Source of the DNA: a virus
IMG/VR virus record: IMGVR_UViG_3300046355_000083
Coordinates: 1 to 32,748 of that record
Direction: 5' to 3' (one strand)
DNA: 32,748 bases
How positions within the stretch are numbered: the stretch's first letter is position 1; every line of letters starts with the position of its first letter. Under the pieces are notes generated by a model. The model saw only the letters and a program-made list of their open reading frames with translations. It made no database searches and had not been told where the DNA came from. Shown piece by piece: positions 7,364 to 21,613 of the stretch. The position numbers were made by a program, and so were the translations under genes.

Positions 7364-9925
7364 ATGAAATTTAGAGATTTTTTACTTAAAGAAGCAAAAG
7401 AAAAACACGCAGTTTTGGCCTTTGGCCGAATGAATCCTCCTACAACCGGACATGAAGTTTTGGTTAATAAGGTTAAGGATGTTGCTAATCAGTACGGTGC
7501 TTCACACCATGTAGTTCTATCCCATTCGCAAGATAAATCTAAGAATCCACTTTCTGCCAGACAGAAATTAAAACACGCACAAAGATTCTTTCCAAATACC
7601 AATCTTTCAGTATCAAATGCTGAAAGTCCTAATTTTCTAACACAAGCAGCAAAGTTACACAAAAAAGGTGTCACACATCTTCATATGGTGGCTGGTTCTG
7701 ACCGTGTTCCAGAATACAAACAATTGTTGCAGAAATACAACGGTACACATAAAGGTGCCTTGTTTAATTTCAAAGAGATTCATGTTCATTCCGCTGGTCA
7801 ACGAGACCCCGATGCTGAAGGTACCGAAGGTATGTCAGCTTCTAAGATGAGAGAACACGCAAAGACTGGAAACTTTAAGGAGTTTAAGAAAGGTATTCCT
7901 GGTCATGTTAAGAATGAACACGCAAAAGAATTGTTTGCCGATGTTCGTAGTTCTATGGGTGTTAGAGAACATTTAGAGAATCAAATTCCAGTTGATTCAT
8001 TATTTGAAGAATTGGTTGTTGAAGGTGTACACGACAAATCAATATTTAAAGCTGTATTCTTAGCAGGTGGTCCAGGTTCTGGTAAAGATTATGTACTTGA
8101 CAATACTCTTTCAGGTCACGGATTAACAGAAATCAATTCGGATAAAGCTTTAGAATTTTTGATGGACAAAAAAGGTCTCGATAAGACTATGCCTGCTGGT
8201 GAACAAGGAGAACGTGATATTGTTCGTGGTAAGGCAAAGAACATGACAGAACTACGTCAACGATTGTCACTATTGGGTCGTAACGGCCTTATTATTAATG
8301 GCACAGGTGATGATGTTGAGAAGATTGCAAAGATTAAAGAACGTTTAGAGGAGATTGGTTACGACACACACATGGTTGCTGTCAATACTGCCGATGAAGT
8401 ATCTAAACAAAGAAATATTGAACGTGGTACTCGTGGTGGTAGAACAGTACCAGAAGAAATCCGCAAAAAGAAATGGGATTCAGTTCAAGCTGCAAGACCA
8501 CAATTTGCTGAGATGTTTGGCCAAAACTATACGGAATTTGATAACTCTGAAGATTTGCGTAATGCACCACCTGAAGTGGTCAAGGCCAAAAAAGATGAGA
8601 TGCTTGAGTTGTTTAAGAAAGTTAAAGAATTCACATCAGCACCACCTGCACATCCAAAGGCTCAAGAGTGGATTGCAAACGAATTACATAACAAAGATAC
8701 AATGGTTGTTGGTGCAAAATCATCAGAACAACCTCCACATCCTGAATCTGGTGCATCGCAAGAGGCACAACAATTAGGATTACAATATTTTGGTTTTGGC
8801 CGATATGGTAAAGATGGTAAAGTTACACACCACTCTGTCAATGATAAATTGGTAGCAATTACTAAAGTTAAACCACCAGAACCTACAATCCCAACATCAG
8901 GCTCATCAGGTATGAAAAAAGTAAACGAAGATTTCGAACAGTTATTTGAAGCTGTTTCAATCACTATATCTGGTGATACAGTAGAAGAAGTTAAGAGTGC
9001 TATGAAACTATTGACTTCAAAGGAAGAACCAGAGGAACAACAGGAACAATACCAATTATCAAATAGTGGTGCATACAACCTATTGACATTAGGTCAAATT
9101 ACAGAGGCAACATCACTAGAAAAGTTCCGTGCAGCTGCATCTCAAAGAGAAAAAGAACATAAGCAAAGAGAATCAGAAATGAAGGCTCGTCACGCAGCTG
9201 GTAAAGAAGATATGTCTGGCGCAATTGAAAGATTAACACAGAGATTGAATAAAGAAGAAACTGTCAATGAAATTTCAGTGAACACATTACAGAGTTATAG
9301 ACAGAAGGCCACAATTGATGCGATTGACCGTGCATCATCAGGTAAAGGTGGTAGTTTAGACCGTATGTTGAATGTTCAAAGAGCCAAAGAAAAGATTGAT
9401 GTTGCTCAAGATAAAGAAAGAACACAGGTTCAACAAACATCTATGTCTGAATCTTTTGTAAAAGATAAGAATGGTAAAGTAAGAGTTTTTATGTTACGCC
9501 GTGCGGCCGCAAAAGAAGCACATCAAAATGGTGGTGTGGTTCATAAACAAGGTGTAGGTTATGTAATCAAATTAAAGGAGAATGAAGATGTTACAATCAT
9601 TAATCAATCTATTCAAGAAGAAACAAGAAGTTCAACCGGAGTTTCCAGTTCAAGAATCACCGAAGGAGCCGGATGCAGTTGTGGAGGAGAAACCAGCATT
9701 AATCAAGGCCGCCAAAAAATCAGCCTCGAACAAACCAAGAAAAAACTCAAAAAAAAAGTAAGTGAGTCGATTGATAGAGGTATAGAACCTGGTATGTCAA
9801 TGAAAAAACCAGTTGACGAATTAACAGGTGATGAAACAACTCTATCTATTGGTGACCAAAAAGAAGATGAGTTGAAGAAACAAGGCATACGACTATCAAC
9901 ATTCAAATCTAAGAAACCAGTATGA
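7364..9925 (+). CDS. Multidomain head-internal-type protein: nucleotidyltransferase plus P-loop kinase
   Basis: An 853-codon frame. Residues 1-11 (MKFRDFLLKEA) resemble a T4 capsid-targeting peptide. Residues 16-200 are a cytidylyltransferase-like domain with TTGH at 27-30 and SASKMRE at 158-164. Residues 228-400 are a kinase with P-loop GGPGSGK (235-241) and an arginine-rich lid (NIERGTRGGR). Later come the phage module YFGFGRYGKDGKVTH (475-489), a charged helical stretch with VNEISVNTLQSYRQKA, and VFMLRRAAAKEAH. Prohead-protease-like sites ([LI]xE or [LI]xxE then A/G) lie between domains at 10, 220, 529 and 581. Residues 743-798 have the odd composition of an out-of-frame reading and overlap another well-initiated frame, so the native end of this protein is uncertain. 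Confidence 0.8.
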   Translation: MKFRDFLLKEAKEKHAVLAFGRMNPPTTGHEVLVNKVKDVANQYGASHHVVLSHSQDKSKNPLSARQKLKHAQRFFPNTNLSVSNAESPNFLTQAAKLHKKGVTHLHMVAGSDRVPEYKQLLQKYNGTHKGALFNFKEIHVHSAGQRDPDAEGTEGMSASKMREHAKTGNFKEFKKGIPGHVKNEHAKELFADVRSSMGVREHLENQIPVDSLFEELVVEGVHDKSIFKAVFLAGGPGSGKDYVLDNTLSGHGLTEINSDKALEFLMDKKGLDKTMPAGEQGERDIVRGKAKNMTELRQRLSLLGRNGLIINGTGDDVEKIAKIKERLEEIGYDTHMVAVNTADEVSKQRNIERGTRGGRTVPEEIRKKKWDSVQAARPQFAEMFGQNYTEFDNSEDLRNAPPEVVKAKKDEMLELFKKVKEFTSAPPAHPKAQEWIANELHNKDTMVVGAKSSEQPPHPESGASQEAQQLGLQYFGFGRYGKDGKVTHHSVNDKLVAITKVKPPEPTIPTSGSSGMKKVNEDFEQLFEAVSITISGDTVEEVKSAMKLLTSKEEPEEQQEQYQLSNSGAYNLLTLGQITEATSLEKFRAAASQREKEHKQRESEMKARHAAGKEDMSGAIERLTQRLNKEETVNEISVNTLQSYRQKATIDAIDRASSGKGGSLDRMLNVQRAKEKIDVAQDKERTQVQQTSMSESFVKDKNGKVRVFMLRRAAAKEAHQNGGVVHKQGVGYVIKLKENEDVTIINQSIQEETRSSTGVSSSRITEGAGCSCGGETSINQGRQKISLEQTKKKLKKKVSESIDRGIEPGMSMKKPVDELTGDETTLSIGDQKEDELKKQGIRLSTFKSKKPV
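9588..9761 (+). CDS. Overlapping small gene ending on a slippery A-run; possible -1 frameshift
   Basis: A 57-codon frame, +1 relative to the large gene around it. It has an excellent ribosome binding site, AAAGGAG at 9574-9580, 7 nt before ATG. It starts MLQSLINLFKKKQE and continues rich in Glu, Pro and Lys, a more natural composition than the surrounding frame. It stops at TAA 9759-9761 directly after A AAA AAG (9752-9758), a classical -1 slippery heptamer; A AAA AAC lies at 9740-9746. A -1 shift would join it to the downstream frame (VSESIDRGIEPG...) and give about 112 residues ending at 9925. A homopolymer length error would give the same picture. Function not recognised; the position suggests a head-core protein. 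Confidence 0.6.
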   Translation: MLQSLINLFKKKQEVQPEFPVQESPKEPDAVVEEKPALIKAAKKSASNKPRKNSKKK

Positions 9926-21025: not shown

Positions 21026-21613
21026 ATGAAACCAACATATTTGTATATTAAACAACATGAGAAATCTGGTATGTTATACTTTGGTAAAACTACAAAGAAA
21101 GACCCATTTAAGTATAAAGGTTCAGGAAGACATTGGAAAAGGCATTTAAATGTTCATGGACAACATATTAAAACTATATGGGTCAGTGATTTATTCACAG
21201 ACAAAGATGATGTGGTTGAGTTTGCTGAATTTTTCAGTGATTTTTTTGATATAGTGAAATCTAAAATGTGGGCTAATGAAAAAAAAGAAAATGGTTTAGA
21301 TGGTGGCAGAGAGGCTGGTTTTATTGGTACAACAAATACTCCATTGACGAGAAAAAAAACATCTGATAGGATGAAAATTAATAATCCTATGTTTGATGAA
21401 AATGTTAAAAAGAAACACAAAGATAAAATAAACAGCCAAGAAGTAAGGGAAAAGAAATCCAAATCTAAAAAAGGCAACACTAATGTTAAAGGTAAATCCT
21501 GGTACAATAATGGAATAGAATGTGCTATGTTATTTGAAAAAGATGTACCTGAAGGTTGGAAAAAAGGCCGTTTGAATCCACATTGGAATTATAAGAGGAA
21601 AATTAATGAATAA
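21026..21613 (+). CDS. Freestanding GIY-YIG homing endonuclease
   Basis: A 195-residue protein. The N-terminal GIY-YIG domain is read as YLYIKQHEKSGMLYFGKTT, followed by KYKGSGRHWKRHL. NPMFDENVKKKHKDKI and related repeats in the middle (about 110-150) are NUMOD3-like DNA-binding stretches. The C-terminus GKSWYNNGIE plus PEGWKKGRL is typical of phage homing endonucleases. It sits between nrdA and nrdB, a classic target region for phage homing. GAGGAG gives strong initiation, and its end overlaps nrdB by 8 nt. Probably nicks or cuts RNR-gene DNA of related phages to spread itself. Confidence 0.85.
   Translation: MKPTYLYIKQHEKSGMLYFGKTTKKDPFKYKGSGRHWKRHLNVHGQHIKTIWVSDLFTDKDDVVEFAEFFSDFFDIVKSKMWANEKKENGLDGGREAGFIGTTNTPLTRKKTSDRMKINNPMFDENVKKKHKDKINSQEVREKKSKSKKGNTNVKGKSWYNNGIECAMLFEKDVPEGWKKGRLNPHWNYKRKINE

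Follow-up and report, generated by a model that had tools for sequence, protein, structure and literature searches.

A probable nested gene within a large cytidylyltransferase/kinase gene of T4-like aquatic phages

The large gene and the frame inside it

The window, i.e. the whole stretch of DNA analysed here, is a 32.7-kb linear virus fragment from IMG/VR (32,748 nt; record IMGVR_UViG_3300046355_000083). It encodes nrdA/nrdB, thymidylate synthase, a primase, PhoH, an endolysin and the virion protein phrog_1645, and it matches cyanophages, pelagiphages and methylophilales phages. Gene content and matches together point to a T4-like aquatic phage as its source. An HNH endonuclease-like ORF (21026-21613), located between the genes of the large and small subunits of ribonucleotide reductase, resembles a homing endonuclease insertion.

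The gene under study (7364-9925, + strand) encodes a protein of 853 aa and is open in all relatives. The protein is composed of a cytidylyltransferase-like N-terminus (residues ~10-205), a P-loop kinase/zeta-toxin-like AAA domain (residues ~229-375), a small folded C-terminal domain that is confident in the structure model (residues ~696-738), a variable disordered linker (residues ~743-787) and a conserved C-terminal tail (VSESIDRGIEPGMSM...GDQKEDELKKQGIRLSTFKSKKPV). The tail is encoded on the + strand at 9758-9925 (residue-coding 9758-9922) and is no separate gene. The N-terminal part is homologous to cytidylyltransferase-like proteins of T4-like cyanophages and pelagiphages (phrog_3041, phrog_395; Pelagibacter phage HTVC008M), whereas the C-terminal 158 residues, which carry the nested gene, are unmatched there and gave no tblastn match in the phage collection. 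In the window, the tail has a gap at 9797-9820: most relatives have ~15-25 additional residues (...SGENxxRxxGE...) here, between the GMSM and ELTGDET motifs.

A second frame, +1 relative to the large one, lies within this gene at 9588-9761 (+ strand) and encodes 57 aa. The Shine-Dalgarno (SD) sequence AAAGGAG (9574-9580, + strand) precedes its ATG at 9588 by 7 nt; an alternative in-frame ATG is present at 9582, and the frame is open over 9582-9761 (59 aa from that ATG). The inner stop, TAA at 9759-9761, directly follows the heptamer A_AAA_AAG (9752-9758), which is in phase with the inner frame and is part of an A9-G run (9749-9758, + strand; nine As at 9749-9757). A second heptamer, A_AAA_AAC, is located at 9740-9746. 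Over the dual-coding stretch (9587-9757, + strand), the host frame encodes the disordered linker and then the start of a helix (KISLEQTKKKLKKKVSESID) running into the tail. An initial, sequence-only reading had identified the large ORF, inner frame, SD, heptamers, A run and TAA, and all of these positions were confirmed.

Relatives were gathered by three scans of viral contigs. The region is covered by 107 unique sequences, window included; these are phylogenetically related, so the counts given below are not counts of independent observations.

Openness and selection in both frames

The openness of each frame was compared with a null in which the protein of the other frame was held fixed. When the codons of the host protein were re-drawn synonymously, an open inner frame arose by chance in ~9% of the draws for a given sequence and in 3% for the window itself, whereas the real inner frame is open in every one of the 105 unique relatives tested. 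When the inner protein was fixed and its codons were re-drawn according to the usage of the genes, 6.7 stops per sequence were expected in the host frame over the overlap (P(open) 0.0004), and none was observed in the same number of sequences. The test loses strength when only each inner gene's own codons are permuted, as the host frame is then open in ~13% of the draws (0.13).

Substitutions were counted per host codon position in 26 disjoint pairs of sequences. Outside the overlap, third positions take most of the changes, both upstream (70/54/289 at positions 1/2/3; 289 out of 413) and in the tail (118/83/365; 365 out of 566). Within the overlap, the changes are spread over the codon positions (174/124/203), and the number of changes per codon is lower than that of the tail. 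Overlap-aware ratios were calculated with our own code, which follows the approach of OLGenie (PMC7531306) and does not correct for multiple hits. They amount to 0.33 (0.25-0.43) for the host frame in the overlap (dNN/dSN) and 0.39 (0.29-0.50) for the inner frame (dNN/dNS), with the strongest host-frame selection in the last third of the overlap, just upstream of the tail (0.21; 0.13-0.30). As a control, a fake +1 frame was scored in neighbouring sequence outside the overlap; its ratio was 0.75 (0.54-1.00) on the upstream side and 0.76 (0.46-1.50) over the tail. These ratios indicate that purifying selection is acting on both frames in the overlap.

One pair of relatives, L145 and L037, shows 2 changes in the 82 codons of the dual-coding stretch, versus 52 in 150 and 18 in 69 in the flanks. 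Recent exchange or very strong constraint are possible causes of this similarity.

An SD was found in 105 out of 106 sequences. At this site, the host protein has Lys/Arg-Glu, and its Glu codon is GAG in 89 out of 89 cases, against a background elsewhere in the large gene of 18% GAG and 82% GAA. There is a slight bias toward this result, since the SD score contributed to the choice of the inner start where several in-frame ATGs were available. The codon choice indicates that the SD of the inner gene is selected at positions that are synonymous in the host frame.

The inner frame could be a spurious, untranslated by-product of a low-complexity host linker. Its chance of opening in the synonymous re-draws and the lack of a database homologue of its product both fit such an origin, but a by-product is not expected to be open in every relative tested, to conserve its two ends and its SD, or to show a ratio of 0.39 where fake frames give ~0.75. 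We regard this explanation as highly improbable. The sequence-only reading had made the reverse proposal, namely that the host frame is an out-of-frame reading at residues 743-798. The S/T/G-rich composition on which this proposal drew is real, but the host frame is open in every relative and is itself under selection, so that the proposal was not borne out; the second gene with its own SD, claimed in the same reading, is corroborated by its openness, selection and SD conservation. That reading had named a host frame conserved across residues 743-798 beside an unconserved inner frame as the outcome speaking against it: the former was found and the latter was not, as both frames are conserved.

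The A run and the relation between inner gene and tail

The position of the A run had led to the proposal of a programmed -1 frameshift, in which ribosomes translating the inner gene shift at the heptamer A_AAA_AAG (9752-9758), pass over the TAA and continue into the tail, yielding a fusion of 112 residues; the arithmetic of this slip is correct (57 + 55). The 3' part of the large frame would then belong to a separate, frameshifted gene. A_AAA_AAG is the dnaX site, on which E. coli ribosomes shift very readily, and a stimulator is dispensable for some frameshifts of tailed phages (PMC5009743). In the window, this site is in phase directly before the inner stop, and the RNA downstream of it folds better than shuffled sequences (z -2.5), although the stem begins ~14 nt from the site.

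The comparison among relatives does not favor a frameshift. In-phase slippery heptamers occur within the last 60 nt of the inner gene in ~30 out of 101 unique relatives, while ~40 (39.7) are expected when codons are permuted within each inner gene, and a heptamer adjoins the inner stop in only 5 of these relatives against 16.3 expected by the same permutation. Slippery sites are thus avoided rather than kept, and a host GAA codon interrupts the Lys run of many relatives. The inner stop also shifts its position relative to the tail. In a frameshift cassette, the downstream frame is reached by the shift alone; here, in all 106 unique sequences that have a tail, the large ORF continues from upstream into the tail without interruption and in one frame. 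Moreover, selection on the host frame peaks immediately before the tail, in a part that the fusion would read in the inner frame instead. In the structure model, a low-confidence helix at residues 788-804 of the large protein (93-109 of its C-terminal residues) spans the supposed junction.

Two relatives separate the inner gene from the tail. L173 has the large gene, the tail and the same neighbours on both sides, but lacks the inner gene: its small folded domain (...YFVKLK) is followed by a joint of a few residues and then directly by the tail (YFVKLK-TKKTINEIDYG...). A quick tree built from the large protein places L173 as the supported sister of L140, and because L140 has the inner gene, L173 represents a loss of it. 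Conversely, in L050, which lies on a 92-kb contig, the tail is lost while the inner frame is open. The inner part and the tail are therefore not one protein. A programmed frameshift is accordingly quite improbable, and the large gene retains its 3' part.

L050 belongs to a subgroup (L012, L028, L046 and L050) in which the tail of the large protein is shortened or missing and the inner gene is kept. A more distant relative, L044 (47% GC), has a large protein without the small C-terminal domain and tail; at L044:5565-5828 it has a +1-frame ORF with AAGGAG before its ATG and a Lys-rich end (KKKSPVKKTAKKVKKSASK), which may be a divergent version of the nested gene.

As an alternative to slippage, one A might be missing from the nine-A run through sequencing error, with the inner frame and the tail forming a plain gene. 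Homopolymer runs are error-prone, and no other A run in the window is as long. However, with ten As the large protein itself would be disrupted, its N-terminal part and its tail falling into different frames, and the frame relation of N-terminal part, inner gene and tail is identical in all relatives, most of which have no long A run. We give this explanation hardly any credence.

A nested gene as best explanation

We consider it about 90% probable, judging from the comparative sequence evidence, that the locus contains a conserved nested (overprinted) gene and a large gene, each translated from its own start by ordinary means and without frameshifting. A nested gene is preferred over a frameshift because both frames are open and under selection, the SD is conserved, and the inner gene and the tail are lost independently. 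Ribosomes on the large gene (7364-9925) would stay in one frame throughout, so that their product includes the folded C-terminal domain, the tolerant disordered linker and, after it, the conserved tail. A second set of ribosomes would begin at the internal SD and the ATG at 9588 and translate the +1 frame as far as the TAA at 9759, producing a separate protein of 57 aa; the inner gene is thus presumably translated. The A9-G run with its heptamer would be incidental. The inner gene probably originated by overprinting, most likely on the linker, as the part of the large protein best able to afford a second code. The overprinting would have happened early in the history of this T4-like aquatic phage group, with the inner gene being lost at least once afterwards (L173).

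The inner protein of the window has an amphipathic N-terminal helix (MLQSLINLFKKK), a Pro/Glu/Val-rich middle and a basic, Ser/Lys-rich C-terminus. The alignment of inner proteins shows the same organization, with an amphipathic start (MLK.IKSFFKK), a variable Pro/Glu/Val middle of low complexity that aligns poorly, and a basic end (KSPSxKS..KKK). In the AlphaFold model, only residues 2-13 form a helix and the remainder is unstructured. Searches against Pfam and PHROGs gave no family match beyond chance, and no paper describing this nested gene was found in the literature searched; the gene seems to be undescribed. A nested spanin of the Rz/Rz1 type was considered and rejected, as no signal sequence or Cys lipobox was seen upon inspection of the alignment by eye and there was no spanin match in Pfam or PHROG. 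From its composition, our guess for the inner protein is a small accessory role: it would be produced together with the large protein and may bind a membrane via its helix, or a nucleic acid or acidic partner via its Lys-rich end. Binding of nucleic acid in particular can be suggested only tentatively on this basis.

In this lineage only, a minority of the ribosomes on the inner gene might slip by -1 at the A9 run and continue into the tail of the large protein. We deem this unlikely. If true, two proteins begun in different frames would share one C-terminus, and such slippage would be a recent exception, slippery sites being otherwise avoided.

Annotation by the longest frame, which is standard for phage genomes, would miss the nested gene. 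A deeply conserved nested gene in ~100 aquatic T4-like phages joins the short list of genes-within-genes with selection shown in both frames, and it provides a clean case, with the second code placed on a disordered linker and with natural losses of each part.

The locus resembles a tail-chaperone -1 frameshift of the lambda gpG/gpGT type in having a slippery heptamer shortly before a stop and a second part in the -1 frame. It differs in that the slippery site is not conserved, the downstream part belongs to another, uninterrupted ORF, and the gene is not in a tail-chaperone position. Nested genes known from phages are Rz1 inside Rz (lambda) and E inside D (phiX174). Unlike their products, the inner protein described here lacks a lipobox or membrane-spanning helix and matches none of those families, and its host gene is a cytidylyltransferase/kinase fusion rather than a lysis or capsid-assembly gene. 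The arrangement itself is like that of Rz1/Rz and E/D: a small gene located wholly inside a larger one, in another frame and with its own ribosome-binding site.
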